DNA of 64,000 nt from Acetobacteraceae bacterium (GTDB lineage Bacteria > Pseudomonadota > Alphaproteobacteria > Acetobacterales > Acetobacteraceae): positions 124,001-188,000 of the forward strand of contig JAMXLO010000141.1 of NCBI GenBank assembly GCA_024280945.1, in the 5' to 3' direction. Below, in pieces: positions 3,173 to 41,690 of this stretch. Within the stretch, counting starts at the first letter, position 1. Every line of letters begins with the position of its first letter. The notes under the pieces are model-generated. The model saw nothing but the letters and a program-made list of their open reading frames with translations, did no database searches and was not told the origin of the DNA. The position numbers and the translations under genes are program-made.

Positions 3173-3246
3173 CGCGCCCTACTGGATTCGAACCAGTGAC
3201 CCACAGCTTAGAAGGCTGTTGCTCTATCCAACTGAGCTAAGGGCGC
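3173..3246 (-). tRNA. tRNA-Arg (anticodon TCT)
   Basis: The minus strand folds as a cloverleaf. The seven-base acceptor stem is GCGCCCT paired with AGGGCGC, and the D arm starts GCTCAGTTGGATAGAGC. The anticodon stem ACAGC/GCTGT encloses loop CTTCTAA, giving anticodon TCT (reads AGA). The T arm contains GGTTCGAATCC. The discriminator base is G and CCA is not encoded. No integrase or duplicated 3' end is seen near it, so there is no sign of use as an attachment site here. Confidence 0.96.
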
Positions 3247-5342: not shown

Positions 5343-5400
5343 GTGCGGGACCGGGCGTCAGCCCAGCCTTCCGCAATGACGGCCAGGCCAGATCCACCCA

Positions 5401-7119
5401 TCATGCCTGGACCAACTCTTTGCACATACGCAGCAACCGTGTGGCATCGGCATCTATCTCGTCATTCACAATGGCAACACCGTAATCGCGTCGTGCCGCA
5501 GCGATCGAAACGAAGCCATCCCGTACATCCTGCAGCACCTGCTCGGCCGCTCGCTCGAACGGATGGCCATGACCGCCACCACCGCCAGTTTCCAGCAGTA
5601 GGACGTCGCCACGTCGCAGCACCGTGCCATCCGACAGCGGTGCAAGCGTCCTCTCGTCTGTCGTGCCTGGATTGACCACGGCACGCCCCGTGCCGCCTCG
5701 CATGCCATCGGCCATACCCCATGGCGGATTCAATACACCGTCGATGCGCATCGATAGCACCGCCTGCTCAGCCAGCACCTCGTATTCGCGCACCACACCA
5801 GCCCCACCACGGAAGCGACCCGGCCCACCGCTGTCGCAGTTGATGCCGTAGCGCAGCAACCGCACTGGATAACCTTGCTCAAGGAACTCGACCGGATAGT
5901 TCTCCTGAGCGACGAAGTAGACCGCATCAATTCCATCGGATGTGGCACGTGCGCCGTAACCGACACCAACGCCGTCCGACAACAGGAACTGCCGTCCCTC
6001 GGCAATGCCGCGCAGCATGATAATGACGTAGGCGGAGTGCGAGGCTGGTGCATTGCCTCCCGCAGTATTCACCAACCCATTCAAGGTCGCCAGGAATCGC
6101 ATCATCGTCATACCGCGCAACCCGAGCGGAGCGGGAAACCGCGGCCACAGCAGCGATCCTTCGCGCAATCGCACCTCATCCAGCGCCCGCGGGCCACCTG
6201 CATTGCACACCTGTGCTGGATCACCGCCGAGAAAGAACAAACCCAGAGCCATCCCCGGCACATCCGGGTTCATCAGAAAGTTCACCGGCCCAGGCGCCTG
6301 GTCATCCGTCTCCGTTGCATCGAATACGAAGCGGTCATCCACCGTCCGGGTCAAAGCCAGGCGGATATGGAACGGCCCATTGCCATGGCCGTCGGAATCG
6401 ATCGCATCGCTGAACCGATGCGTCCCGACCGGAAACGTCTCACGCAGCCGCACACGCACCAGCTCACGCGTGCGAGCGAAGAGTTGTGCAAAGGCGTCAG
6501 CCATGACGTCCGGCCCAAACCGCGCCAGCAGCTCCCTGACCCGTCGCACGCCCAGTTCCACGGATGCCATCAGCGCGTGCGTATCGCCGCGGCTCTGGTC
6601 CGGGTAGCGAGAGTTGCGGTGGAAGATCTCCAGCGCCGCTTCGTTCATCACGCCAGCTTCGATCAGCCTGGTAGGCGGGATGATGATGCCTTCCTGAAAG
6701 ATGTCGGTGGCATCAGAGCTGATGGATCCTGGCCGAAGCCCGCCAATGTCAGAAAAATGCGCCCAGCCCATGACGAATGCGGCGCGTCGCCCATCGTGAA
6801 AAACGGGCGCCAGAAAAACCTGATCATTCGAATGCGACACTGCGCCGCGCGATGCATAACAATCGCTGTACCAGTAGAGGTCGCCCTCTCGCATGGTCTC
6901 CGGTGCAAAGCGGGTGAACACCGGGCCGGTGATGTCGCCGAAAATCGGCACCATGGAGCCGGCCACCATCACACCGTCCGCATCGAACAGTGCGGTGTAG
7001 AAATCCTTCTTCTCGCGGATGAACGCGCTGATCGCGGTGCGCTCAAGCAATGCATCCATCTCGGCCTGCGCGGCACGAATCGCACCGCGGATGATTTCCA
7101 GTCGGATTGGGTCGACCAT
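5401..7119 (-). CDS. hyuB: Hydantoinase B/oxoprolinase family protein (HyuB-type)
   Basis: About 572 residues, typical for the B subunit that partners HyuA. Recognisable segments are DPIRLEIIRGAIRAAQAEM at the N-terminus and IREKKDFYTALFDADGVMV. A glycine-rich block (NSGGPGRFRGGAGVVREYEV in similar form) and a C-terminal GGGGGHGHPFERAAEQV follow. The start ATG is placed at MVDPIRL because its A is also the last base of the creatininase stop codon (TGATG overlap), which indicates translational coupling. A and B are separate here rather than fused as in eukaryotic 5-oxoprolinase. Substrate unknown. Confidence 0.9.
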   Translation of the reverse strand: MVDPIRLEIIRGAIRAAQAEMDALLERTAISAFIREKKDFYTALFDADGVMVAGSMVPIFGDITGPVFTRFAPETMREGDLYWYSDCYASRGAVSHSNDQVFLAPVFHDGRRAAFVMGWAHFSDIGGLRPGSISSDATDIFQEGIIIPPTRLIEAGVMNEAALEIFHRNSRYPDQSRGDTHALMASVELGVRRVRELLARFGPDVMADAFAQLFARTRELVRVRLRETFPVGTHRFSDAIDSDGHGNGPFHIRLALTRTVDDRFVFDATETDDQAPGPVNFLMNPDVPGMALGLFFLGGDPAQVCNAGGPRALDEVRLREGSLLWPRFPAPLGLRGMTMMRFLATLNGLVNTAGGNAPASHSAYVIIMLRGIAEGRQFLLSDGVGVGYGARATSDGIDAVYFVAQENYPVEFLEQGYPVRLLRYGINCDSGGPGRFRGGAGVVREYEVLAEQAVLSMRIDGVLNPPWGMADGMRGGTGRAVVNPGTTDERTLAPLSDGTVLRRGDVLLLETGGGGGHGHPFERAAEQVLQDVRDGFVSIAAARRDYGVAIVNDEIDADATRLLRMCKELVQA

Positions 7120-7865
7120 CAGTCCGCGACGAAGGCTTGATACACCTCCACCATGTCGGCGACTGACGCCTGGTAGAGTTGGGCGCCATGCTCGGGCGTG
7201 GACACGGAAGGATCCGATCCGATGCGGCCATCGGGGAATCGCCGGCGGTAATCGGCGCAATCGAAGAATCCGGTGCTCTTCGGCGCAACCTTTGGCGACA
7301 TCTGCGCGTATTTGATCGCCTCGGGGTGGTAGTGCTGCGACAAAGACACCTCGGCTGCCGTCGCGTGGCTACCATTCGAGTCGCCATACAGCTCCTTGGC
7401 GAGCGCCGTTGCACGTGGGCCCTGCGACCAGAATATCATCTTGCACCGCACGGGAGACGACTCGCCAGGCCCGCGCATCGACGATGCGGCATAGATCTCG
7501 TCGAACGCAGCCGTCACCGTGGCCACGTTGCCGCCATGGCCGTTGATGAACAGGAATCGCTCAAAGCCATGCTTTATCAACGAGGTGACCACGTCACACA
7601 CCAGCGCGATCAGGGTTGAGGGACGCAGCGTGACTGAGCCGGCGAAACCCAGATGGTGTTGCGACATACCAATGGTCAGCGTTGGCGCCACCAGGCAACC
7701 GATCGCGTCGCCCACACCCTTGGCGACAAACTCCGCATCGAGGTGATCGGTGCCAATCAGCCCATTTGGTCCGTGCTGCTCGGTCGAGCCAATCGGGATT
7801 ATTATGCCGTGCGACGCACGCAGATAATCCTCCACCTCGTGCCAAGTGGACAACGCGAGTTGCAT
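7119..7865 (-). CDS. Creatininase family amidohydrolase
   Basis: About 248 residues. The family's metal-binding signature is present: PIGSTEQHGPNG, then GTDHLDAE, then INGHGGN. These supply the Glu/His/Asp ligands for the two divalent metals. Members hydrolyse cyclic or linear amides (creatinine, formamidopyrimidines, mycofactocin precursor peptide). Start MQLALS is supported by AGGAGAGG upstream. It is the first gene of the operon with hyuB and hyuA, suggesting sequential opening of an amide or ureide ring. The exact substrate is unknown. Confidence 0.87.
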   Translation of the reverse strand: MQLALSTWHEVEDYLRASHGIIIPIGSTEQHGPNGLIGTDHLDAEFVAKGVGDAIGCLVAPTLTIGMSQHHLGFAGSVTLRPSTLIALVCDVVTSLIKHGFERFLFINGHGGNVATVTAAFDEIYAASSMRGPGESSPVRCKMIFWSQGPRATALAKELYGDSNGSHATAAEVSLSQHYHPEAIKYAQMSPKVAPKSTGFFDCADYRRRFPDGRIGSDPSVSTPEHGAQLYQASVADMVEVYQAFVAD

Positions 7866-9364: not shown

Positions 9365-11068
9365 ATGACAGAGACAACGGTGAACGGCGCCGAGGCGCTG
9401 CTCGAGCTGTTCCGGACGCAAGGCGCAGACTACATCTTTTGCTCGCCGATCGCCGCCTGGGCGCCGCTGTGGGAAGCACTGGCCAAGCGGAAGGCCACCA
9501 GCAACGTCGAGACGCCACAATACCTCAACTGCCGGCACGAGATCCTCGCGGTTGGCCTGGCCGCAGGCTACTACAAGGCGACCGGTCGGACACAGGCAGT
9601 ACTGCTGCCGACAGGTCTCGGTGTACTGCACGGCGCGATGGCACTGCGCTCGGCGTACCACGAGCACATCCCCATGGTAATTGTGTCCCCCGACACGCTG
9701 ACGCATGGCGCAGTGCCGGAACTCGACCCTGGGCCGGAGTGGCCGACGCTCCTGGTGGATCTGGCCGGACCCGTGCGCAACAGCGAGACCGTGACAAAGT
9801 GGGCCAAGGAGGTGAAAACCGGCACCGATCTTGCCGCCGACATTCGTCGCGCCTGGTATTTCGCCGAAAGCGTTCCGCGTGGCCCGACATTGGTCGGTGT
9901 ACCGTTCGACATCCTGATGAACCACATTGCCGCCCCGCAGGCTGCCAAAACCAAGGCGCCAGCCGTGGTCGCGCCACTCGACAGCCTGTGCGAAGTTGCA
10001 ATGCTGTTGAAGCAAAGCCGCGCGCCCCTGATCGTGACCGAGCACGCCGCGCGCACAACAGAGGACCAGACCGCACTGGTGAGCATCGCGGAGTGCATCG
10101 GCGCACCAGTGTTTGAATACTGGATGCCGCTCTACGCGAATTTCCCGCGCGCACATGCGCTCTACGCCACCGATCCAATCGAGATGCACCTGAAGGACGC
10201 CGACTGCATCCTGATTGCCGGCGCGCACGGTCCGTGGCACCCACAGGAAACACCTCTGCCGGAGGGATGCAAGGTCATTCAGATGGAGGAAGACCCGCTA
10301 CGGCCACGCGCCCCTTACTGGAATTTCCGCACCGACTGCTGCATAGCCGGCGACATCGGCAGCAACCTGAGGCAGCTCGCAACCCTGCTGCAGGCAGAGC
10401 CGGGGGAACCCGAGGTGGCGAGCCGTATTCAGCATTGGCAGGCGCACAACGCGGCAAACAATGCCGCCGCCGCCGAGGAGCGCGAAACTGCACGCAGCGG
10501 TGAGCGAATCCATGCGGCCCACCTGTTCGATGTGCTGCACGGCCTGCTGCCGAATCGATCGGTCATCGTCGATGAGATCATCGCGCAAGTGCCGGCGATG
10601 ATCCGCCACCTGTTTCGGGAGCGGGATTTCAGCCACATCCGCGGCTGGGCGGGCGCCCTAGGTACTGGCCTGCCCACCGCCCTCGGGGTGAAGCTCGCAC
10701 GGCCGAATGACGTCGTCGTCTGTGTCATCGGCGACGGCGCATTCAACTACAATCCAGTTCCCGCCTGCCTGGGCCTGGCGCAGCAGTATCGCGTGCCGGT
10801 GCTGGTGATCATCTGCAATAACCAAGGCTACGTATCGCAGGAGTGGAACCTGTACAAGCATTTTCCTTCTGGCTTTGCGCTGCGCGACAATAACCCGTAC
10901 GGCCGGGTGATCGAACCGACACCCGACTATGCGGCGCTCACTCCCGCCTTCGGCGGGCACGGAGAGTGCGTCAGCGAACCGGCGCAACTTGAACCGGCGA
11001 TTTCCCGCGCCATCTCTGCGGTTCAAGGCGGACAGCTTGCCTTGCTGGACGTCCGGCTCGAGCCATGA
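9365..11068 (+). CDS. Thiamine diphosphate-dependent enzyme, acetolactate synthase-like
   Basis: About 567 residues with the three ThDP-enzyme domains. The N-terminal PYR domain has the helix Glu in [21 protein letters not shown] central domain follows, and the C-terminal PP domain has the Mg-ThDP motif starting [11 protein letters not shown] and ending CNNQGY. GGAGGGAGC lies just before the start ATG. Members include acetolactate synthase, benzoylformate decarboxylase and oxalyl-CoA or sulfoacetaldehyde enzymes; key specificity residues cannot be assigned. It is followed seven bases later by hutH on the same strand, suggesting cotranscription. A second ThDP enzyme lies at 24756-26447. Confidence 0.88.
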
Positions 11069-11075
11069 GGTCGCC

Positions 11076-12605
11076 ATGGCCACTGTGGCCATCTGTCCCG
11101 GTCGGACCACACTTGCGGACTGGCGAGCGATCTATCGCGGGGCGGCTGTAACGCTCGATCCGGCCTGCCACCACTCTATCGTTCGCAGTGCCAACGCTGT
11201 CGAGGAAATTCTGGCGCGTGGCGAGCCGATCTACGGGATCAATACCGGATTTGGTCGCCTGGCGAGCATTCGCATCGCACCGCACGAACTCGCAACACTG
11301 CAGCGCAATATCGTGCTGTCGCACGCCGCTGGAGTGGGCGACCCGATGCCTGCACATCTCGTGCGGCTGATGCTGGCTTTGAAGCTGTCGGCCCTGGCGC
11401 AGGGCGCGTCCGGCGTGAAGCCGGCAACCATCACGTTGTTGGCCGACATGATCTCGCACGATCTTCTGCCGGTGGTACCGACGCAAGGTTCCGTCGGCGC
11501 GTCGGGCGATCTCGCGCCACTCGCGCATATGGCTGCGGCGATGATCGGCGCCGGCGAGATTATGCACGGTGACGCCCGCATTCCTGCCGCGACGGCATTT
11601 GCCCAAGTCGGCGTGGAACCGATTGTACTCGGCGCCAAAGAAGGTCTTGCGCTGCTGAATGGCACGCAGTTTTCCACCGCGTATGCCCTGGCCGGACTGT
11701 TCGAGGCGGAGGCATTATTGCAGGCAGGCCTGGTTACCGGCGCTCTGTCAACCGACGCAGCCCGCGGATCGGACGCGCCGTTCGATCCACGCATTCACGC
11801 TCTGCGCGGCCACCGCGGACAGATCGACGCCGCCAACGCGTTGCGTGTGCTGCTTGCCGGCAGCGCCATTCGTGCCTCGCACCTTACCGGCGATGATCGG
11901 GTACAGGATCCGTACTGTCTGCGCTGCCAACCTCAGGTCATGGGTGCTGCGCTCGACATCCTGCGGCACGCCGCAGCGACCATGGAAGTCGAGGCCAATG
12001 GTGTCTCGGACAATCCACTGATCTGCGGCGACCCGCCGGAGGCGCTGTCAGGCGGAAATTTCCACGCCGAGCCAGTTGCCTTCGCCGCCGATGTGATTGC
12101 GCTGGCCCTCTGCGAGATAGGCGCGCTGGCCGAGCGCCGTATTGCCATGCTGATCGATCCAGCACTGTCGCGTCTGCCGGCGTTTCTGACACCGAAGCCG
12201 GGATTGAATTCCGGCTTCATGGTGGCGCAGGTGACTGCAGCCGCGCTGGTCGCCGAGAATCGCCAACGGGCAATGCCCGCAAGCGTCGATTCCATTCCGA
12301 CTTCGGCCAACCAAGAGGATCACGTGTCGATGTCGGCGCACGGTGCGCGCCGACTATTGCCGATGACCGATAATGTCACCGCCATTCTCGCCATCGAATT
12401 GCTGGCGGCGACGCAAGGCTGCGACTTCCATGCCCCCCTGACATCGAGCGCTATGCTGGAGGTCGTGCGGACGATGGTGCGCGCGGAGATCCCGCATCTC
12501 GAGGAGGATCGCGCGATGGCGCCGGATATCGCCAAGGCAACTGCCATGGTGCGGTCCAATTGGAGAGAGCTGCTGCCAAAGGCCAACTTGCCTGTTCTGC
12601 TGTGA
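11076..12605 (+). CDS. hutH: Histidine ammonia-lyase
   Basis: Converts L-histidine to trans-urocanate and ammonia, the first step of histidine use. 509 residues, standard size. The MIO cofactor is formed from Ala142-Ser143-Gly144 in [12 protein letters not shown], at the same numbering as the Pseudomonas enzyme. Substrate residues lie in [42 protein letters not shown] and [10 protein letters not shown]. All match canonical HAL rather than tyrosine or phenylalanine lyases. The start is seven bases after the ThDP enzyme stop. hutU follows after one intervening kinase-like gene; hutI and hutF/hutG are not in the window. Confidence 0.95.
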
Positions 12606-12635
12606 AAGTTTGCGCGGAGACTGGGAACACACATC

Positions 12636-13583
12636 GTGCGTGGTCCGCTGGAGATAACGGAAAAGGTTCGTCGGAATGCTGCTTTAGTGGGCGACGCCGG
12701 TCGTGCCTGGATTGCGGACTTACCCCTGCTTATTTCGGAACTCGAGGTTCGCTGGGCATTCAAGGTCCAGGCGTCAGTGCAGCGAGCCAGCGAAGCATTT
12801 GTCGCCGAAGCCCGTACGAATGACGGGCTTGAGGTCATTGTTAAGATCGTGGTGCCCGGCATCGATCAGGCGCGTCAGGAACTGCGCATATTGCGGCGAG
12901 CACAGGGGCTTGGCTACGCCAGGCTGATCCGATGTGACGAAGTGAACAATGCAATGCTGCTCGAGAAACTCGGCCCGCAGCTCCACCAGTTCGATCTTTC
13001 AGGAGATGCGCGCATCCAAGTCATCGCTACCACTCTGCGGAAGGCTTGGCTGACACCACCGCCTGAAGGACCGCCTCTTGTTACAGGCGCCGAAAAGGCT
13101 GTGGAGTTTTGCCGTCTTATAGCATCGAATTGGCAGTCGCTCGACAGGCCATGTTCTGAACGGACAATCGAACTGGCGCTGTCGTACGCCGAGAGACGGC
13201 GACGCGCATTTGATCCTGCGCAGTCAGTGCTCGCGCATGGAGATGCGCACGAATGGAACACCCTTCGAGCATCAGGCAACGGCACGGGATTTAAGTTCGT
13301 CGATCCCGATGGCGCCTTTGCGGAGCGCGCTTTCGACCTAGGTATTCCAATGCGTGAATGGGGTGATGTGACCCCAGCGGGGGATCTTTTGCAGCTCGGT
13401 CGCCGTCGCTGTTTGCAGTTGAGCCAGTTTACCGGCGCAGAGTCTCAGGCGATTTGGGAGTGGGGCTTCGTCCAGTGCGTGTCGAATGGTTTGTCGCTAC
13501 TCCGGATCGGACTTGAGAAGCCCGCGGCTGTGGAGTTCGCGATGGCAGATGCCTGGGCGGCCGAGCCTGGGCCGATGTTTTGA
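12636..13583 (+). CDS. Aminoglycoside (streptomycin 6-) phosphotransferase family kinase
   Basis: 315 residues with a GTG start. The N-terminal half holds the ATP-binding lobe (ELEVRWAFKVQASVQRAS, and the Lys-containing LEVIVKIVVPG). The C-terminal half has the phosphotransferase catalytic loop VLAHGDAHEWNTL (H-G-D-x-H-x-x-N) and a metal-binding FVDPDGAF. This layout matches the APH(6)/StrB family. Many chromosomal members have no known link to resistance and may phosphorylate another small molecule. It sits 30 bases after hutH and 30 bases before hutU, an unusual place. Base composition appears slightly less GC-rich than the flanking hut genes by eye (not computed). Confidence 0.8.
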   Translation: MRGPLEITEKVRRNAALVGDAGRAWIADLPLLISELEVRWAFKVQASVQRASEAFVAEARTNDGLEVIVKIVVPGIDQARQELRILRRAQGLGYARLIRCDEVNNAMLLEKLGPQLHQFDLSGDARIQVIATTLRKAWLTPPPEGPPLVTGAEKAVEFCRLIASNWQSLDRPCSERTIELALSYAERRRRAFDPAQSVLAHGDAHEWNTLRASGNGTGFKFVDPDGAFAERAFDLGIPMREWGDVTPAGDLLQLGRRRCLQLSQFTGAESQAIWEWGFVQCVSNGLSLLRIGLEKPAAVEFAMADAWAAEPGPMF

Positions 13584-13613
13584 TATGATATGACAAGCCA
13601 CCCGGAGATAGGC

Positions 13614-15278
13614 ATGCCGCAGCTCAGCAATGTCCGCACCATACACTCCCCCCGCGGCACGGATCTCACCGCGAAGTCGTGGCTCACCGAGGCGCCGATG
13701 CGCATGCTGATGAACAACCTCGATCCCGAGGTGGCTGAAAGGCCGGGTGAACTCGTCGTTTACGGCGGCATGGGCCGCGCCGCGCGCGACTGGGACAGCT
13801 ACGATCGCATTGTCACCACGCTGCAGCGGCTGGAAGCAGACCAGACGTTGCTGATCCAGTCGGGCAAGCCGGTCGGCGTGTTCCGCACGCATGAGGACGC
13901 ACCGCGCGTCCTGATCGCAAACTCCAACCTGGTGCCGCACTGGGCCACCTGGGAGCATTTCAACGAGCTCGACCGCAAGGGGCTCATGATGTTCGGCCAG
14001 ATGACTGCGGGTTCGTGGATCTACATCGGCAGCCAGGGAATCGTGCAGGGCACGTATGAGACCTTCGTCGAAATCGGCCGCCAGCACTATGGCGGCAACC
14101 TCGCGGGGCGCTGGATTCTGACCGCCGGCCTAGGCGGCATGGGCGGCGCGCAGCCACTGGCAGCGACGATGGCGGGCGCATCGCTGCTGGCGGTGGAATG
14201 CCAGCCCAGCCGGATCGAGATGCGCCTGCAGACCGGTTATCTCGACATGCAGGCAAGCACTTTGGACGAAGCGCTGGCGATTATCGAACGCTCCTGCCAC
14301 GATCGTAAGCCAACTTCGATCGCGTTGCTCGGCAATGCAGCCGAAGTCGTGCCGGAATTGGTGCGCCGCGGTGTGCGGCCGGATGTGGTGACGGACCAGA
14401 CCTCATCGCATGATCCGGCCAATGGCTATTTGCCGAAAGGCTGGTCGGTCGCCGAATGGGAACGCCGCCACGAAACAGCCCCTGCTGAGGTCGCTACTGC
14501 CGCTCGCCAATCGATTGCCGAGCACGTAGAAGCCATGCTGGCGTTTCATCGAATGGGCGTGCCCACGGTGGATTATGGCAACAACATACGGCAGGTCGCG
14601 AAAGACGCAGGAGTGCCGGACGCGTTTGACTTTCCAGGCTTCGTGCCGGCCTATATCCGACCGCTGTTCTGCCGCGGCATCGGCCCATTCCGCTGGGCCG
14701 CACTGTCGGGTGACCCCGAGGATATCTACCGCACCGATGCCAAGGTGAGGGAGTTGCTGCCCACGCACACTCACCTACATCACTGGCTTGACATGGCGCG
14801 CTCGCGCATTCACTTCCAGGGGCTGCCGGCACGCATTTGCTGGGTTGGCCTGGGCGATCGTCACCGGCTAGGACTGGCCTTCAACGACATGGTCGCAAGC
14901 GGTGAACTGAAGGCGCCGATCGTTATCGGTCGCGACCATCTCGACGCCGGCTCGGTCGCGTCGCCCAACCGCGAGACCGAGGCGATGCGTGACGGGTCCG
15001 ATGCTGTCTCCGACTGGCCGATGCTGAACGCACTGCTGAACTGTGCATCAGGTGCCACCTGGGTTTCGCTGCATCATGGCGGCGGCGTTGGCATCGGTTA
15101 CTCGCAGCACGCCGGCATGGTCATCGTCTGCGACGGCTCCGACGCCGCAGCGCGGCGTACTGAGCGCGTCTTGTGGAACGACCCGGCCACCGGCGTGATG
15201 CGGCACGCCGATGCCGGCTACGACATTGCGCTCGACTGCGCGCGTCAGAACCGCCTAGACCTGCCCGGTATCCTGTGA
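13614..15278 (+). CDS. hutU: Urocanate hydratase
   Basis: Adds water to urocanate to give 4-imidazolone-5-propionate, using tightly bound NAD+ as electrophile. 554 residues, normal length. Diagnostic blocks are [61 protein letters not shown] and [17 protein letters not shown]. The catalytic Cys is near residue 409 in ARICWVGLG, corresponding to Cys410 of the Pseudomonas enzyme. The start is set at MPQLSN because a GGAG site precedes it; an ATG eight codons upstream lacks one. It is in the operon after hutH and the kinase. The next hut enzyme (hutI) is absent from the window. Confidence 0.95.
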
Positions 15279-33329: not shown

Positions 33330-34520
33330 TCAGACGGGCACACTCAACGCGTCGTACTCGTATAGCCAGTCGTAACGGGCGCCCATGGCGCGCGGGGCAA
33401 ACTCGCGCGCCATGAAGGCCTGCGCGGTGGCAGGGTCGGCAAGCTGCGGATTATGGTAGCGCGAAACATTCTCCAGCGAACCGCGCACGATGCGCGACGT
33501 GCGGTCGAGTCGCGCCGCCTCATACCGGACTAGTGCCTCAGAGCCGTCGAAGGCATCGAGGCAGCGCGCCAGCACCATTCCGTCCTCGATCGCCATGTTG
33601 GCACCTTGCGCGAGGAAGGGCAGCGTTGGATGGCAGGCGTCGCCCAGCAGGGTGACACAGCCGACCGACCAGCGCTCGAGCGGCTCGCGGCCGAGCATCG
33701 CCCATTTGTACGGAACGTCGATTGCATCGATGATCGTCAGCACGTCTTCATGCCATGGCGCGAAGTCGCGGCGACATTCTTCGACCGTGCCGGCTTCCGA
33801 CCAGCTCTCGATGAGCCAATCATCGCGTTCGATCGCGGTGACGAAGTTCAGCAGTTCGCCACGGCGTAGTGGATAGGTCACGACGTGGCCGTGCGGGCCG
33901 ATCCACGTGTTACCGTACTGCTGACGAAGCCTCGAAGGGAGGCGTTCCATCGGCACCACGCCGCGCCAGGCAATGAATCCGGTAAAGGTGGCGCGACCGG
34001 GACCGAACAGTGCCTGGCGGACCCGCGAGTGCACACCATCGGCACCGATCAGCACGTCGCCGTGCGATTGCTGGCCGCCTTCCAGCAGCAAGGTCACGCC
34101 ATCGGCGCCCTGCTGGAAGTCGGTAACCCGAGCGCCGACATGCACTGCGTCCGGTGCGCGCTCGATCAGCGCCTGGACCAAGACCTGATGGAAATCGCCA
34201 CGGTGCACCAGCCAGTAAGGCGAGCCGAACCGCTGTTCCGCCGTAGCGCCAAGATCTTGCACCCGCCAAGCCTGGCCGGTGTTGAACAGCCGCATGTCCT
34301 TGGCCTTTGGCACCGAGGCAATTGCCTCCATCGCCGATCTCAGGCCCAGAGCGCCTAGGACACGCGAACCATTGGGTGAAATCTGCACACCGGCACCAAT
34401 TTCGCGCAGATCCGCGGCCTGTTCATAGAGTTCAACGGCAAAGCCGCGCTGGAGCAAGGCCAGCGCTGCGACGATGCCGCCAATGCCGGCGCCGGCGACC
34501 AGGATGCGCCGCTTGCCCAC
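33330..34520 (-). CDS. FAD-dependent aromatic monooxygenase (class A, salicylate hydroxylase-like)
   Basis: 396 residues from a GTG start chosen because GGGGAGG lies seven bases upstream; an ATG ten codons earlier has no such site. ILVAGAGIGGIVAALALLQRG is the N-terminal FAD dinucleotide loop. GADGVHSRVR is the DG motif, and GDACHPTLPFLAQGANMAIED is the GD motif contacting FAD ribityl and NAD(P)H. The pattern matches 3-hydroxybenzoate/salicylate/6-hydroxynicotinate type hydroxylases. It diverges from a VOC protein and sits near an HpaB-type hydroxylase, so it probably belongs to an aromatic or heteroaromatic pathway. Confidence 0.88.
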   Translation of the reverse strand: MGKRRILVAGAGIGGIVAALALLQRGFAVELYEQAADLREIGAGVQISPNGSRVLGALGLRSAMEAIASVPKAKDMRLFNTGQAWRVQDLGATAEQRFGSPYWLVHRGDFHQVLVQALIERAPDAVHVGARVTDFQQGADGVTLLLEGGQQSHGDVLIGADGVHSRVRQALFGPGRATFTGFIAWRGVVPMERLPSRLRQQYGNTWIGPHGHVVTYPLRRGELLNFVTAIERDDWLIESWSEAGTVEECRRDFAPWHEDVLTIIDAIDVPYKWAMLGREPLERWSVGCVTLLGDACHPTLPFLAQGANMAIEDGMVLARCLDAFDGSEALVRYEAARLDRTSRIVRGSLENVSRYHNPQLADPATAQAFMAREFAPRAMGARYDWLYEYDALSVPV

Positions 34521-34585
34521 GCGACCTCCCCTGTGCGATGCCAGCATGAGTGCCGGGAAGCTCGGCTGGATGCAAGCGGGAGGAT

Positions 34586-35161
34586 ATGATGCTCGAAAAA
34601 GCGGAGACGCACGGCCAGACGAAACTGTTGGCCGAACCGCCGCTGCGGCTGCACCATCATGCCTATGCGGTGAAAGATCAGGAAGTAAATCGGCACTTTA
34701 TTGAAGACATCTTGGGTATTCCGTTGGTCGCCACCTGGTGCGAGCGGACGTTTCGCCCGGAAGTCGGGCGCGAAGTCGACTATTGCCACACGTTCTTCGA
34801 GATGGGTGACGGCGGGGCACTCGCATTCTTTCAGTTCGCGGACGACGAGGCATGGGAAAAGAATCGTGCAATGCTACAGGAGGTGGGTGGATCGTGGCAT
34901 GTGGCCTTCAAGGTCACGCAGACCACGTTTGATGAGCTGATGCAGCGGGTGACCAAGGCAGACGTGCCGGTGCGCAAGATCGATCACGGATACTGTGTGT
35001 CAATGTACTTAAAGACCCCGGATGGGCTGCGACTGGAGTTCACGGTCGACGCGCCAGATGCAGAAAAGATCGCAGCGATGCGCCGCAAGGACGCGCATGG
35101 GGAACTTGCGCGTTGGCTGGCGGGTGATCGGCGCGTCAACAACGATGACCGGCCGCACTGA
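34586..35161 (+). CDS. VOC family protein (glyoxalase / dioxygenase fold)
   Basis: 191 residues. LRLHHHAYAVKDQEVNRHFI begins the first beta-alpha-beta unit, WHVAFKVTQTTFDEL the second, and PDGLRLEFTVDAP carries the C-terminal ligand Glu. GGGAGG precedes ATG-ATG. Between two aromatic hydroxylase genes, it is a candidate ring-cleavage or isomerising enzyme, although extradiol dioxygenases are usually longer. Diverges from the FAD monooxygenase. Confidence 0.82.
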   Translation: MMLEKAETHGQTKLLAEPPLRLHHHAYAVKDQEVNRHFIEDILGIPLVATWCERTFRPEVGREVDYCHTFFEMGDGGALAFFQFADDEAWEKNRAMLQEVGGSWHVAFKVTQTTFDELMQRVTKADVPVRKIDHGYCVSMYLKTPDGLRLEFTVDAPDAEKIAAMRRKDAHGELARWLAGDRRVNNDDRPH

Positions 35162-35167
35162 GCAGCA

Positions 35168-36616
35168 TCACATCACACGGTCGCTCAATCCGGCTGCGTG
35201 CTTCACGAACCGCAGCGGCGTGCTGAAGTCGAAGTTCATGTAGACCGCATTGAGATGCGCGTACGGCGGTGACTGCGCGAACAGCTCAAATGTCAGGCGG
35301 TGACCGGCATAATCGGAGTTCAGCAGGTCACGGGCGAATGCCAGCAATCGGCGCCGGTCGTCCGCGCTCCAAGCCTCGTTGACGGTGTAGAACTTCTCGA
35401 GCCAGGGTCTGGTCTCCGGATCGACGAACGCAGCAAAATCGGGCGTAACGCAGATCTGCCCCCCGCACAATTCACGCGCCAGATGCATCATCGCCGGCAG
35501 CTTCGTGCAGGCGTGCACGCGACCAGTGAACAGCAGTGACTGGTTCGGCATCAGCAGCCCAGCTGGGCTGGGCTGGGCGGCAGCAATCGCCGCGGTCAGG
35601 TGCGCGTTGATGCCCTCGCGGTAACAGGCAAGCTCAGCGAGCTTTTCGCGCACGGCCTGCTGCTTGTCCAAACCTGTCTGTCGCGCATTGAACAGTGCGG
35701 CGCCGATCAGCATGTCGGCCAGGTAGAGAATACGCTGCGTGTAGGGAAATGCCGAGTAGCGATGCAGTGTCGCGCGAATGAATGTCGCGGCGCGTGTGTG
35801 GCGGTAGAACAGCACATTTTCCCACGGCACCAGCACGTCATCGAACACAATCAGCGTGTCCACCTCGTCGAAGCGATTCGACAGCGGGTAGTCATCCGCT
35901 GGTGTGCGACCGGCAAAGCCGGTGCGGCAGATATGCTTTATGCCAGACCAGCCCATATCTGCGATGAATCCAACGGCATAATCGGACAGCTTGTCGTCGC
36001 CCCAGTTGGCGATGGTCGGCTTGACGAATGCCTGATTGGCGTACGCAGCGGCGGTTTCATACTTGGCGCCTCGCACCACGATGCCGGCATCGGTCTCCTT
36101 CACCACGTGGAGCAGCATGTCCGGGTCCTGGTCCTGTGGCCGCTTAGAGCGATCGCCCTTGGGATCGGTGTTCGCTGATACGTGGAATGGATCAGCAATG
36201 AGCGCGCGCATAATGTGGTGCTCGACGTTCTGGCTGAACTGTGGATCGATCTCGTCCAACACCGCCTTGCCGTCCCACAGCGACCACAATTCGCCGATCG
36301 TCTCGTCGCCCACCCGGACCACCACGCCGCCAATTTCGTTGAGCTGAGCGTCGACATAGGCACGCTTGTCGTGCCAGTCCTGCTGGATCTTCGGCAGCCT
36401 TAACGCGAGGTTGCAGGGTTCGCGGCTCGCCTCCTCGGTGTACGACATGGTCGCGCTGTGGCGCGGCTCGTGCGCCATGTCGTACAGCCGTGCGCGCAGC
36501 GACACAATCGGCCGGAATGCCCGATGTTTCGTGACATCGGTGACACGCTCGCCATTGATCCAGACCTGCCGCCCATCGCGCAGGGAATCGAGGTATTGTT
36601 TACCAGTTCTGAGCAT
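35168..36616 (-). CDS. 4-hydroxyphenylacetate 3-hydroxylase (HpaB) family flavin monooxygenase
   Basis: 482 residues. MLRTGKQYLDSLRDGRQVWI is the family N-terminus. VVKETDAGIVVRGAKYETAA, RFDEVDTLIVFDDVLVPWEN and the four-helix C-terminal domain with LARELCGGQICVTPD follow. These enzymes use FADH2 from a partner reductase (HpaC) to ortho-hydroxylate phenols; some members instead dehydrate 4-hydroxybutyryl-CoA, but the Fe-S cysteines of that branch are not seen. No reductase gene is adjacent. Convergent with the VOC gene by six bases. Confidence 0.9.
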   Translation of the reverse strand: MLRTGKQYLDSLRDGRQVWINGERVTDVTKHRAFRPIVSLRARLYDMAHEPRHSATMSYTEEASREPCNLALRLPKIQQDWHDKRAYVDAQLNEIGGVVVRVGDETIGELWSLWDGKAVLDEIDPQFSQNVEHHIMRALIADPFHVSANTDPKGDRSKRPQDQDPDMLLHVVKETDAGIVVRGAKYETAAAYANQAFVKPTIANWGDDKLSDYAVGFIADMGWSGIKHICRTGFAGRTPADDYPLSNRFDEVDTLIVFDDVLVPWENVLFYRHTRAATFIRATLHRYSAFPYTQRILYLADMLIGAALFNARQTGLDKQQAVREKLAELACYREGINAHLTAAIAAAQPSPAGLLMPNQSLLFTGRVHACTKLPAMMHLARELCGGQICVTPDFAAFVDPETRPWLEKFYTVNEAWSADDRRRLLAFARDLLNSDYAGHRLTFELFAQSPPYAHLNAVYMNFDFSTPLRFVKHAAGLSDRVM

Positions 36617-36678
36617 GACGTATCCTCACCGACCCGCAGGCAGTTTGCCCGGCAGAACGTGACCTTGCTAGGCTTAGG

Positions 36679-38805
36679 GTGGAATTGTCGCGCGGAGTGA
36701 TCGGTTTGGCCGGCGGTGACCTGGAAATCCCCACCGTAGCCATTGTAGACGACAGGTCTCTGTCAGCCGCCGAGAAATTGGCGAGGGCGCTTGATGGCGC
36801 CGGGTTATGGAGCTTGCTGCGCCGCGTACGGAGGGATCGCAAACCGGCTGACCTGCGCATCGTCATCAAGCCCGAATTGGGAGGCTTTGCCATCGGCTCG
36901 CCAACGGCGACCGATCCGCGCCTGGTCGAAGATCTTCTGGACCTGCTTCACGATCAAGGCTTCTCCGACGCCGCAGTCGTCGGAACCTGCGACAGCAGTG
37001 CCGCCTGGGCGGAAAATCGTGACCTGCATGCTTTGGCCGAACTGCTGGGCTATCGCTATGAGACCGGGAAGGGGCGTGCCTACGACATTCTCGACCTTGC
37101 TGACGATCTGGCATTCGACGCCTTTCCAAGCGGCTGCGTTCTGCATGGTTGCGCCATCTCCAGGCTTTGGTTGAATGCAGATTGCCGCATTGTGTTCAGC
37201 AAGTCCCGAAGCGACGAAGCTGCGGGATACGCTTTGTGCCTCGATACGCTGATCGACGTCCTGCCGCTGACTGACAAGGATTCCCACTACCGCAGGCGCA
37301 GGGATCCGGGAGATGTGGCACTTGCGCTACACGACGTGACGCCAGCGCAGTTTTGCCTGATTGACGGCATCGTCGCGGCACACGGAGCGGGAGGAAGGCG
37401 TGCACCAGCTGCGATCGACACCGGCACGCTGATTGCCACCTCTGACATTATACTTGCCGATTATGTTGGCGCGTTGAAGATGGGCCTCGATCCGACGGTG
37501 TCACCGACATTCGCCCGGGTCACCCGTTATTATCCGGTAGCACAACGTTATATCATCAAAGGATCACTTGCACCGTGGCCGAAGTGGCAGAACGTGGCAC
37601 CAACCGCGCTGGAAGCCACGAAGCTGCGGCAGCGTGCCGAATGGCTTGACCAACTCGTGGAACCCTGGCTGCAGTGCCTGGATCCGGAGCTATTTCCACT
37701 GAGACATCCGTTGAATGCGCGCCTGAACTCGGCGCTTGCACCGTTCTTTGCCGATACCAGCAATGCATGGCTGCTGGACATCCTCAACGGACTTCTGGGA
37801 TCGATCGGTCAGGCCATTGAAGTGTATCGCACGATATTGGACAAAGATGCGCTGCGCCAAAGTGTCATGCCCCTGGGACTTGATCCCGCTACGTTGCCAC
37901 ACAGTGCACCCGCCACGCTGGTAGAAGGACTGCTGCAACTGGAGCCTGCTGCCGCTGCCGCGCCTCGAGTGTCGCCTGAGCTCTGTTGGCGAAACATTGG
38001 CGAATCTGTCGTGTTCCGCTACGTGCGAAGTCTGCCGATTGACTTTGACCTGTTCACCCGGCGTGTCGACATTGCACGGACCATTCAGTTCATGAATGAC
38101 TACCTGGGCGGCGTCCTCGTGGTGCTTGCGCACGACGGCGCTGGACGCCCCGTGTACCAGGCGGAGCGCAACGTCTACCTGCCGCAACCGAATTACCTGG
38201 TGCTCTACCAAGGCAAGCCTATCGATGTCAGCAAGCTCGAGGTAGTGCAGTACGAAGTCGACCGCCATCGGCTGTTCTGGAAAACCATCAAGAGCGAAAA
38301 CTGCTCGGCAACCTATGATGATGGCATCGCGACATTTGAACGGACGCCAGACGGGACCCGTATCGTCTTCACCGGCCAGCAGCAATTCACACTGCCACCC
38401 TTCTGGCAGGTGTTCGACCCTAAGTTCATACCTGGTCTGAAACCGAAATTGGTGACGCACGCGTATCAGACGTTCTTCGATCGAACGATCGCGAATCTGG
38501 AGGCCCTGGTGGAGGGGCGCGAGATTCGCATAGGCAAGCCGGTTGATGAGCCATCGACGCCGCCCATCGAGCTGCTGATGCCCTGGATACAACGGCTATT
38601 GGAGATGGGAGCGCCCGTACTGACACAGCTTGCCGGGCAGCAGCGGACAGGAGGACCCTCAGGCGAAACCGACACGGATGGATTTACACATATTGGGCCG
38701 ACGAAGAACTCATCGACCGACGCGGAGCTCTGGGGCGCGGAGTTGTCTCGGTTCGTCGAAGGGTTGAACCAGGCAATTACCCGCGATCTGATGCGTCAGC
38801 AGTGA
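36679..38805 (+). CDS. DUF362 domain protein with long C-terminal extension
   Basis: About 708 residues from GTG; another GTG six codons on is possible. Residues about 55-285 match DUF362: VIKPELGGF, the region around LWLNADCRIVFSKSRSDEA, and FCLIDGIVAAHGAGGR leading to DYVGALKMGLDPTVSPTF. The cysteine cluster of ferredoxin-fused DUF362 proteins is missing. Residues about 450-640 look like an SRPBCC or lipid-binding fold (YDDGIATFERTPDGTRIVFT, FTLPPFWQVFDPKF). The C-terminus is polar and low in structure. It is followed four bases later by a reductase gene. This architecture was not recognised; the function is unknown. Confidence 0.78.
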   Translation: MELSRGVIGLAGGDLEIPTVAIVDDRSLSAAEKLARALDGAGLWSLLRRVRRDRKPADLRIVIKPELGGFAIGSPTATDPRLVEDLLDLLHDQGFSDAAVVGTCDSSAAWAENRDLHALAELLGYRYETGKGRAYDILDLADDLAFDAFPSGCVLHGCAISRLWLNADCRIVFSKSRSDEAAGYALCLDTLIDVLPLTDKDSHYRRRRDPGDVALALHDVTPAQFCLIDGIVAAHGAGGRRAPAAIDTGTLIATSDIILADYVGALKMGLDPTVSPTFARVTRYYPVAQRYIIKGSLAPWPKWQNVAPTALEATKLRQRAEWLDQLVEPWLQCLDPELFPLRHPLNARLNSALAPFFADTSNAWLLDILNGLLGSIGQAIEVYRTILDKDALRQSVMPLGLDPATLPHSAPATLVEGLLQLEPAAAAAPRVSPELCWRNIGESVVFRYVRSLPIDFDLFTRRVDIARTIQFMNDYLGGVLVVLAHDGAGRPVYQAERNVYLPQPNYLVLYQGKPIDVSKLEVVQYEVDRHRLFWKTIKSENCSATYDDGIATFERTPDGTRIVFTGQQQFTLPPFWQVFDPKFIPGLKPKLVTHAYQTFFDRTIANLEALVEGREIRIGKPVDEPSTPPIELLMPWIQRLLEMGAPVLTQLAGQQRTGGPSGETDTDGFTHIGPTKNSSTDAELWGAELSRFVEGLNQAITRDLMRQQ

Positions 38806-38809
38806 TGCC

Positions 38810-39871
38810 ATGCAGGTTCTGGTAACCGGCGCGACAGGTTTGATTGGCATGCACATCGTTCGAGCGCTGGTTGAGGCCGGCTACGATGTACGCTGCCTGG
38901 TTCGTGCTTCCAGCCGTCGCGATGCGCTTGGCAAACTGCCTGTGGCCTGTGTGGTTGCGGATGTGACGCAGCCAGGCGCCGACCTGGAAGCGGCCTGCCG
39001 CGGCTGCGGCGTCGTATTTCACACTGCCGCGCACTTTGCTTATACCGGGTTCAGCACGACCGAGTTACACCAGACGGCTGTCGCAGGAACCGATGCGGTG
39101 CTGAACGCCTGTGCAAGACAGAATGTCCGCAAGGTCGTGGTGACTTCGTCATCAGTCGTGTTTGGCTACACACGCGACGGCACGCTGGTCCACGAAGCCA
39201 GAGCACCTGTCGCGGCCAGTGGGGAGCCTGCTTACGTCACGGCAAAAGTCGCTCAGCATCGACATGCATTGCGGCTCGCGGGTCAACTGAAGCTGGACGT
39301 GCGCCTCGCATGTCCAACGATGACCATCGGTCCAACAACGGCACGGCTAGGACCCAGCAATGGTGCCATCGTTTCATATTTATCTGACCCTTTTGGCAAC
39401 AGCTATCCGGGCGGCTGCAATATTGTTGCAGCACGTGATGTGGCCGTTGGTCATCTGGCCATTGCCGAAAGGGGCAGCGCCGGCGAAAGCTACTTGCTGG
39501 GTTCCGGCAACGTGACGTGGCAGCAGATTCACCGCATGATCGCCGAGCTCGCTGGCGTCGCGTCACCGCGGCTTCAGCTCACTCACACAGCCGCATATCT
39601 TGCTGCGACCGGCGAGGAAATACGGGCTGCGGTAACGGGACGGACGCCTTTGTCGACCAGGGAGCAGGCTGGAATGGTGGGCCGGTTCTACTGGTATTCC
39701 CATGACAAGGCCACCGAGTTGGGCTATTCGCCCGCTCCGGTGCGCAATGCGATGGTAGAGACACTATCGTGGCTGGCGGCATCGCCTCACATTTCGCGCG
39801 AGATCAGGACGCGGATGCATCTGTCACCGGAAATCTACCGTTTTCGGACTGCCACGGAGACAGGAGCTTGA
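38810..39871 (+). CDS. NAD-dependent epimerase/dehydratase (dihydroflavonol reductase-like)
   Basis: 353 residues, extended SDR. The cofactor loop is VLVTGATGLIGMHIVRALVE. VVVTSSSVVFG supplies the catalytic Ser region and AYVTAKVAQHRHA the Tyr-x3-Lys. The overall pattern is closest to the dihydroflavonol-4-reductase / HpnA / 3-beta-hydroxysteroid dehydrogenase side. It starts four bases after the DUF362 gene. Its stop overlaps the TTG start of the next gene (TTGA), so the three genes are translationally linked. The substrate may be hydrophobic, given the lipid-binding-like neighbours (inference). Confidence 0.85.
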   Translation: MQVLVTGATGLIGMHIVRALVEAGYDVRCLVRASSRRDALGKLPVACVVADVTQPGADLEAACRGCGVVFHTAAHFAYTGFSTTELHQTAVAGTDAVLNACARQNVRKVVVTSSSVVFGYTRDGTLVHEARAPVAASGEPAYVTAKVAQHRHALRLAGQLKLDVRLACPTMTIGPTTARLGPSNGAIVSYLSDPFGNSYPGGCNIVAARDVAVGHLAIAERGSAGESYLLGSGNVTWQQIHRMIAELAGVASPRLQLTHTAAYLAATGEEIRAAVTGRTPLSTREQAGMVGRFYWYSHDKATELGYSPAPVRNAMVETLSWLAASPHISREIRTRMHLSPEIYRFRTATETGA

Positions 39872-40404
39872 AGACGTTTCGCAGCGTGCTCGTGCTGAGA
39901 CGCCCCCAGCAGGAGCTATGGACAAACATGCGCGATCACCTGGTCGAATTTGCTGAACACATCGCTGATATCGAGAGTATTCGTCAGATTGAGCGAACCA
40001 TCGACACCGATGGCAGGATTTTGATCGCCAACGAGTGGTCTGTTCGGCAGGTGCTGCCCTCAGCACTCCGTACAATGTTCAAGGTCGACAAGTTCAGTTG
40101 GATCGATCGCAACAGGTGGGATGAAGCGACTCGAATCTGCAGCTGGGCAATCGAGCCGGCGGTATTGGCGGAACACATCGCGTGCTCCGGTCAGACCCAT
40201 TTTTCTGCCGCCATGGGCAGTCGTGGAACGCGCGTCACTTTCACCGGCGAACTTGACATCAGGCCGGCGCTGCTCGCCGCATTGGGTTCCCTTGGACCAA
40301 TCCTGTCAGGCTTCATCGAGTCGATCGTAACCACGATGATACCGCGCAACCTGCGGGCGGTGGCAGAAGCGGCAGCCGAGTTCGGTGCGCGCCACCGCGG
40401 CTAA
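39868..40404 (+). CDS. SRPBCC (START-like)-type hypothetical protein
   Basis: 178 residues, starting at TTG with ACAGGAGC directly upstream and a four-base overlap with the reductase stop. The pattern KTFRSVLVLRRPQQELWTNM starts a typical helix-grip protein. It continues IANEWSVRQVLP and TRICSWAIEP, then RVTFTGELDIRPALL and a long C-terminal helix. Such folds bind hydrophobic ligands in a deep cavity. It resembles the C-terminal part of the DUF362 fusion in overall pattern. It converges on the beta-propeller gene with a four-base overlap. The specific role is unknown. Confidence 0.7.
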   Translation: MKTFRSVLVLRRPQQELWTNMRDHLVEFAEHIADIESIRQIERTIDTDGRILIANEWSVRQVLPSALRTMFKVDKFSWIDRNRWDEATRICSWAIEPAVLAEHIACSGQTHFSAAMGSRGTRVTFTGELDIRPALLAALGSLGPILSGFIESIVTTMIPRNLRAVAEAAAEFGARHRG

Positions 40405-41690
40405 CCGATCAAGGCCCCATGATGGAAGCCGAGCCGAGGATCGCTCGCAGCTGATAACCATGGGAAGTAGTTCTGTAGCTCTGGCATCGGCACGCGAATA
40501 CGTTGTGTGCCGGCTGGATAGTCATAGACAGTTATACAGTTCAGACCACGATTAGCGGTGAACAACAGCGACTGATCCGCGGAAATCTGGCACGCATAGA
40601 CGGAGTCCAGCAGGCTGAAGCGACTAACGCGGAGCGCGCCCAGGAAATGCCGGCTGTTCGTCGCAAAGCTGCCGCGCGCGAATGCGTCGTGCAGCTGCGT
40701 CGCCACTTCACGCGGCCGAGCCATATGTGCCGCCAGGTCCGCGCGTTCATCGATGATGCGGTAATGGGCGAAGTTGGCTAGTTCGATACCCACGATCGAC
40801 TGGCTGCCGCCATTGCAGAAGATGAGCTCGCTGTCGGACAGGATAATGTCGGAATTGACATGGGCAGGAACCTCGCGCCCTGCTGCCCAGTGCCGCAGCA
40901 CACGCTTCTCCCGGGCGTCTATCTCGAATGCGTATTCCTTCAGGAAGGCCATGCCCCACTCGTGGTAGTCACGGTAGTCCTGCGGCGCGACCCGGAACGA
41001 AACTGCGTAGAAGATATCGTCCCCCGGGTGCACAGCGACATGCCAGCAGGTTGCCGGCAACTGTACAACACTGACCCGGTTGGTCCGCCGGTCCCAGATA
41101 CCAACGTGACGTGCCTCACCGGCTTCGCCATCAGCAGGATTATCCATCGATCCGTAAACAACATAGCGACCCGACGCTGTACGCTTCATGCCATGGGGCA
41201 GCTTCACACCGTGCCGCACGAGGCGGCGAGGATTGGCCAAGTCACCCAACCTGAAGGCATAGAAATGCTCGCCGACTGGGGTGACTATCTCTTCATCCGT
41301 CAGCCAGATCACGTGAGTGCTGCCTTGCAGCGATGTTCTCGCCGTCTCGAAGCGCAAGGTCGAGATGCGGTCTATTTCGTTCAAGGTATGCGCATCATAG
41401 AACAGCAGGTGCTGCCCCGCGTTGCCAAGATATCCCACTGTGCCAGCAGGATTGACCGACACGGCATGGCCTGCAGCAATGCCATCGAAGTACACGATCT
41501 TATAAGCGTGGCGGTTGCCGACCGGATCGAACAGAAACAGGCAGACGCCCGCCATGCCTTCCAACCCGTTGATGCCATTGCCATCGAGCGCAATATGAAA
41601 CGCGTACGGGTAACCTTTAACTCCTGCCGCTTCAACGGGAGATCGCGTGCGTGGAGCAGGTCGTGCTCGTCGTTTGACTGTCTTCGCCAA
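40401..41690 (-). CDS. Beta-propeller-like hypothetical protein, zur-coupled
   Basis: 429 residues from a TTG start that directly follows the zur stop codon (TGATTG). No stop-free upstream extension is possible. Repeated strand blocks suggest a seven-bladed propeller: GVCLFLFDPVGNRHAYKIVY, AVSVNPAGTVGYLGN, GRYVVYGSMD, CWHVAVHPGDDIFYAVSF and LLFTANRGLNCITVYDYPAG. There is no signal peptide; the N-terminus is basic (KRRARPAPRTR). HGMKR, CWHVAVHPGDD and HVNSDIILS hold possible metal-site histidines. The family was not recognised. Coupling to a zinc regulator hints at metal biology, but this is inference. Confidence 0.72.
   Translation of the reverse strand: MAKTVKRRARPAPRTRSPVEAAGVKGYPYAFHIALDGNGINGLEGMAGVCLFLFDPVGNRHAYKIVYFDGIAAGHAVSVNPAGTVGYLGNAGQHLLFYDAHTLNEIDRISTLRFETARTSLQGSTHVIWLTDEEIVTPVGEHFYAFRLGDLANPRRLVRHGVKLPHGMKRTASGRYVVYGSMDNPADGEAGEARHVGIWDRRTNRVSVVQLPATCWHVAVHPGDDIFYAVSFRVAPQDYRDYHEWGMAFLKEYAFEIDAREKRVLRHWAAGREVPAHVNSDIILSDSELIFCNGGSQSIVGIELANFAHYRIIDERADLAAHMARPREVATQLHDAFARGSFATNSRHFLGALRVSRFSLLDSVYACQISADQSLLFTANRGLNCITVYDYPAGTQRIRVPMPELQNYFPWLSAASDPRLGFHHGALIG

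Follow-up and report, generated by a model that had tools for sequence, protein, structure and literature searches.

A putative genus-restricted operon joining a divergent DUF362 fusion protein to an extended short-chain dehydrogenase in Acetobacteraceae

The three genes described here lie at positions 36679-40404 of a 64,000-nucleotide stretch from an alphaproteobacterium of the family Acetobacteraceae (assembly GCA_024280945.1, contig JAMXLO010000141.1, positions 124,001 to 188,000; hereafter the window). They encode, in order, a DUF362 fusion protein (protein 1), an extended short-chain dehydrogenase/reductase (SDR, protein 2) and a small, probably helix-grip, protein (protein 3). Each part has its own closest described relatives. 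Extended SDRs are marked by the motifs TGxxGxxG and YxxxK, and the nearest comparisons for this one are HpnA (TIGR03466) and the solved structure 3wj7. For the putative helix-grip parts the comparison is with the SRPBCC/START/Bet v1 proteins (Polyketide_cyc2, PRELI/Ups1, PR-10, PYL). DUF362 (PF04015) is found in several phyla, as the matching control genomes show, and shares Pfam clan CL0471 with DUF2088, the lactate racemase domain of LarA (PMC11770544); the portions of PMC11770544 and PMC7955657 available to us give no reaction for DUF362. The literature searched yielded nothing pairing DUF362 with SRPBCC or with polyketide cyclase, no pairing of SRPBCC with an extended short-chain dehydrogenase or TIGR01777, and no START/sterol combination.

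We tentatively interpret the locus as a genus-restricted operon that combines a reductase with two probable helix-grip domains and would process a hydrophobic small molecule. The finding is real but modest, given that the association is seen in one lineage only and the substrate class is putative.

Gene layout, conservation and distribution

The three genes lie on the forward strand, the first separated from the second by a 4-base gap and the second overlapping the third by the four bases TTGA, so that the open reading frames and abutting order described in the sequence-only reading were borne out. The frame of protein 3 is also open further 5', giving a longer open reading frame at 39769-40404. 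Co-transcription of the three genes appears probable from this arrangement. A consensus scan of the 62-base stretch upstream found no promoter-like site.

The same three genes occur in the same order in a second species, on contig JANWJK010000178.1 of Acetobacteraceae bacterium isolate CRAIB_MAG65, which is classed in the same genus (hereafter L003 or the congener); the layout is therefore more than chance. There the stop of the fusion gene and the start of the SDR gene overlap in ATGA, and the SDR stop and protein 3 start overlap in TTGA. None of the three frames is interrupted in either species. The proteins are 64% (fusion), 67% (SDR) and 60% (protein 3) identical between the two, and the nonsynonymous and synonymous divergences (dN/dS, NG86) are 0.28/1.84, 0.25/1.56 and 0.28/1.38, with dS near saturation. 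All three genes are under purifying selection, dN being well below dS. Their identities are similar to one another and lower than those of the neighbouring HpaB-like hydroxylase (92%), 429-residue protein (84%), Zur (83%) and flavin adenine dinucleotide (FAD) monooxygenase (75%).

Profile searches with the operon proteins covered the window's own phylum; the counts that follow each include the window's own genome, and the genome sets overlap. Strong matches to the fusion were found in 2 of 249 family genomes (own and congener), and matches in 1 of 398 phylum genomes (own only) and 2 of 60 relatives. Protein 3 matched 1 of 249 phylum genomes, its own, at E≤0.001. A GTDB contig scan returned 50 stretches, among which only L003 was a relative; a query of this kind, made with one protein, picks up only close relatives. 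The fusion had no match in plasmids (tblastn, E≤0.01), and none of the 47 viral-contig stretches that fit a pattern was a relative. The operon is thus best read as genus-restricted among the genomes searched. The sequence-only reading had proposed its neighbourhood as a test, and the genes do stand together in both fusion-bearing genomes, but the two belong to one genus and the test is thin. The search of the 249 family genomes also gave three further weak partial matches to the fusion (E 0.003-0.009, spanning 71 to 98 positions), one of them with an internal stop, which we took as chance.

Domain content of the three proteins

The N-terminal part of protein 1 is a DUF362 domain. It scored 64 bits against a gathering cut-off of 24 and covered profile positions 1-199 of 200, and the congener copy scored 68.2 bits. 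The window domain is the only DUF362 match in its genome at E≤0.01, and DUF362 is the only Pfam family that the fusion matches at E≤1; across the phylum, the domain occurs at E≤1e-5 in 44 of 398 genomes, the window's own among them. The window protein resembles the PF04015 family in this full-length match, whereas it adds about 440 residues after the domain and the 44 other listed places sit in open frames of 233-425 codons.

Of these places (45 with the window's own), 30 loci entered a motif comparison and 14 further ones were not aligned; the 30 aligned Pseudomonadota proteins look like mostly one narrow related type. All 30 carry KPN and KxH...KN, the latter a motif seen in this alignment and not a published definition, and both are absent from the window and congener copies, with KPE in place of KPN in the window protein. 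In the comparison proteins 118 columns reach 95% conservation or more, and each of the two copies keeps 30 of them; residues kept in the fusion include K64-P65, T78, P80, H203, D229, D256 and D261. Judged by this alignment, the domain is divergent relative to its Pseudomonadota relatives and lacks KxH...KN. The sequence-only reading had instead singled out missing ferredoxin cysteines. Pfam upheld its domain assignment and the DUF362 part indeed has no CxxCxxC, but this absence is ordinary, since none of the 30 comparison proteins has one either.

Protein 2 is an extended SDR, as had been proposed. It matches the Pfam families Epimerase (78.4 bits) and 3Beta_HSD (66.8 bits) above their cut-offs and keeps both TGxxGxxG and YxxxK, with G7, G10, G13, Y142 and K146 invariant in both copies. 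Among solved structures 3wj7 comes nearest (E 8.2e-48), followed by 2x4g and then by dihydroflavonol and cinnamoyl-CoA reductases, and it aligns over nearly its whole length with HpnA and 3wj7, the glycine motif and YxxxK being alike. Of the 57 NCBIfam models that it matches, the best 25 all have cut-offs that its score does not reach; for example, it scores 116.3 bits against the SdmB sterol demethylase (NF052578), whose cut-off is 600. The sequence-only reading called the enzyme NAD-dependent, which is at best putative: R32, after the second strand, would presumably suit NADP(H) more than NAD(H).

The C-terminal half of protein 1 is probably START/Bet v1-like, that is, of helix-grip fold, an assignment made with low to moderate confidence from structure prediction. 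In the model of the full-length fusion, residues 436 to 611 form a strand, a strand, two helices, four strands, a short helix and a long helix, and none of these elements falls within 491 to 517; this order resembles that of helix-grip proteins. The 50 Foldseek matches listed for this low-confidence model (mean pLDDT 34.4) were mostly PR-10, PYR/PYL, START, PRELI and polyketide-cyclase proteins, the best at E 4.2e-3 and none at E≤0.001. Matches by VIA fell at about residues 430-579, the best having Z 5.9 (101 residues aligned, 4.1 Å), a level that VIA warns may reflect merely a common arrangement, and some (DcrB, SciW, MTC28 and others) were by name outside the helix-grip group. Polyketide_cyc2 (PF10604) was matched in the window copy at 14.8 bits, under its gathering score of 27.4. 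Searched by sequence against solved structures, the fusion gave nothing credible (best E 0.96, a ferredoxin receptor).

Protein 3 is likewise a probable helix-grip (SRPBCC) protein, again with low to moderate confidence. Its model (mean pLDDT 52.0) contains a helix and strands as well as a long helix at the C-terminus. Foldseek returned 65 matches at E≤0.001 (best E 1.0e-5), but with TM-scores of about 0.2-0.4, and the 50 listed are helix-grip proteins by name and family. The best VIA match had Z 9.9 over 117 aligned residues (3.2 Å), mainly residues 47-177, and 2 of the 50 VIA matches listed were Bam-complex chains. The congener's protein 3 reached 15.9 bits against Polyketide_cyc2, also below the gathering score, and sequence comparison of the window protein with solved structures gave nothing credible (best E 0.59, a glutamate receptor). 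The two helix-grip claims of the sequence-only reading are favoured, at low confidence, by the folds that dominate the listed matches; the Pfam hits were sub-threshold and came from one copy in each case. Both models have fold-level matches to SRPBCC/START/Bet v1 proteins, whereas neither the fusion C-terminus nor protein 3 matches them by sequence above a Pfam cut-off.

Possible function and alternative readings

In the reading that we tentatively prefer, the operon would contribute one or two steps to metabolizing a hydrophobic small molecule. Catalysis would fall to the extended SDR, as an oxidoreductase for a carbonyl or an alcohol, and the putative helix-grip domains of protein 3 and of the C-terminal half of protein 1 would hold or present the substrate. 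The divergent DUF362 part would probably serve as a scaffold or bind a different ligand. A probable ligand-binding fusion partner next to a reductase offers a concrete route to a DUF362 ligand, and the narrow distribution limits the wider importance of the operon.

Several results count against this interpretation. The two structural models are of low confidence (pTM 0.24 for the full-length fusion), the C-terminal stretch of the congener's fusion gave no Pfam family and no Polyketide_cyc2, and the same holds for the window's protein 3. In hhalign, protein 3 reached at most 10% over 14 columns against COQ10-like sequences (best of 40 shuffles, 3.8%), and SRPBCC sets reached less than 1% probability against the fusion C-terminus (shuffles reach 0.7%); the hhalign comparisons decide nothing, because the positive control, the DUF362 part against a DUF362 set, failed as well at 1.3%. 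The neighbouring ZnuA is also only 64% identical to its congener copy, so similar identity alone does not mark the three genes as a unit. Finally, the carriers of the operon are only two members of one genus.

Another explanation, which we consider rather unlikely, makes the operon one arm of a larger aromatic-compound pathway that includes the HpaB-like hydroxylase, VOC protein and FAD monooxygenase (33330-36616) and perhaps the 429-residue protein. Hydroxylation would come first, then reduction by the SDR, with the helix-grip domains acting on the product. The block of FAD monooxygenase, VOC, HpaB, operon, 429-residue protein, Zur and ZnuA is collinear in the congener, and a 62-base divergent region is common to the HpaB-like gene and the operon, both of which fit a shared pathway. 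However, the shared order in a single congener may reflect inheritance and nothing more, because Zur and ZnuA are kept too, and the operon proteins are far less conserved than HpaB. HpaB orthologs are common: at E≤1e-80, 18 of 147 genomes have one, counting the window's own and the congener. Stretches were compared from 12 of the 16 remaining genomes, which belong to the same family or class and whose HpaB is about 63-79% identical, and in all 12 HpaB was the only one of ten window proteins found, with no match to the other nine (tblastn E≤1e-5; several flanks were short, limited by contig ends). HpaB is therefore not generally tied to the operon, and a functional link between the two would be at best conjectural.

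A bolder version of the preferred interpretation, which we regard as improbable, is a new type of enzyme: a START-like ligand domain joined to a DUF362 domain whose core region is rewritten, and made together with a dedicated reductase and another helix-grip protein. If true, it would mean that hydrophobic small molecules are within the reach of DUF362 proteins, and it would give a handle on the role of the DUF362 fold.

We also think it improbable that the SDR acts as a sugar epimerase of the hopanoid type, with the operon taking part in hopanoid or other lipid modification. HpnA is indeed the best NCBIfam family of the SDR, at 238.2 bits, but this is below the cut-off of 367.65, and a proper HpnA (484.4 bits, above cut-off) lies elsewhere in the same genome on another contig (C81). 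Identity of the SDR with HpnA is ruled out on these grounds.

It is very unlikely that the operon is a decaying, functionless remnant with a degenerated DUF362 domain: the absence of KxH...KN and an identity lower than that of most neighbours would suit decay, but both species keep the frames unbroken, the dN values fall well below dS and the SDR motifs are kept.

LarC takes part in the biosynthesis of the LarA cofactor, and its family (Ni_insertion, PF01969) had no match at E≤0.01 in the window's own genome, which is 99.02% complete, while 6 of 14 control genomes matched. That no LarC was found argues against lactate-racemase-type chemistry, and we give hardly any credence to a DUF362 domain working as a LarA-like nickel-pincer-nucleotide racemase or epimerase, with the START-like domain selecting a hydrophobic 2-hydroxy acid, since the clan shared with DUF2088 (PMC11770544) is not function by itself and the fusion's Pfam matches hold DUF362 alone.

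Features of the locus and its surroundings

Table 1. Features of the operon and its immediate neighbours, in window positions
Feature	Position	Strand	Description
HpaB-like flavin-dependent hydroxylase	35168..36616	-	divergent neighbour; module membership uncertain
Divergent intergenic stretch between HpaB-like gene and operon	36617..36678	.	62 bases; TTGCTAGGCT upstream of the operon start, present also in L003
Protein 1	36679..38805	+	708 aa, GTG start; DUF362 plus probable START-like C-terminus; full-length ortholog in L003
DUF362 domain	36859..37473	+	residues 61-265; without KxH...KN; Pfam PF04015 E 2.7e-17
Probable START/Bet v1-like region	37978..38511	+	residues about 434-611; low-confidence model, Foldseek and VIA matches, sub-threshold Polyketide_cyc2
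Extended SDR gene	38810..39871	+	353 aa, ATG start; HpnA/dihydroflavonol-reductase-like, not HpnA
Protein 3	39868..40404	+	178 aa, TTG start overlapping SDR stop; probable SRPBCC (helix-grip)
429-aa protein of no known family	40401..41690	-	convergent neighbour, overlaps operon end by 4 bases; membership uncertain

The 429-residue protein was found in 2 of 120 relatives (own and congener) at E≤1e-10 and had no Pfam or PDB relative at E≤1; our impression from its sequence is of a possible beta-propeller. In the congener the VOC gene (L003:7862-8465) is divided between two frames, which each show about 85% identity to the VOC protein of the window, through a frameshift or an assembly error, and its dN/dS comparison is not usable for that reason. 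Farther from the operon, a hydantoinase/oxoprolinase A and B pair lies beside a tRNA (3173-3246) at 3336-7260 on the reverse strand, and genes for an aromatic amino acid lyase and a urocanase at 10929-15278 on the forward strand suggest histidine degradation.

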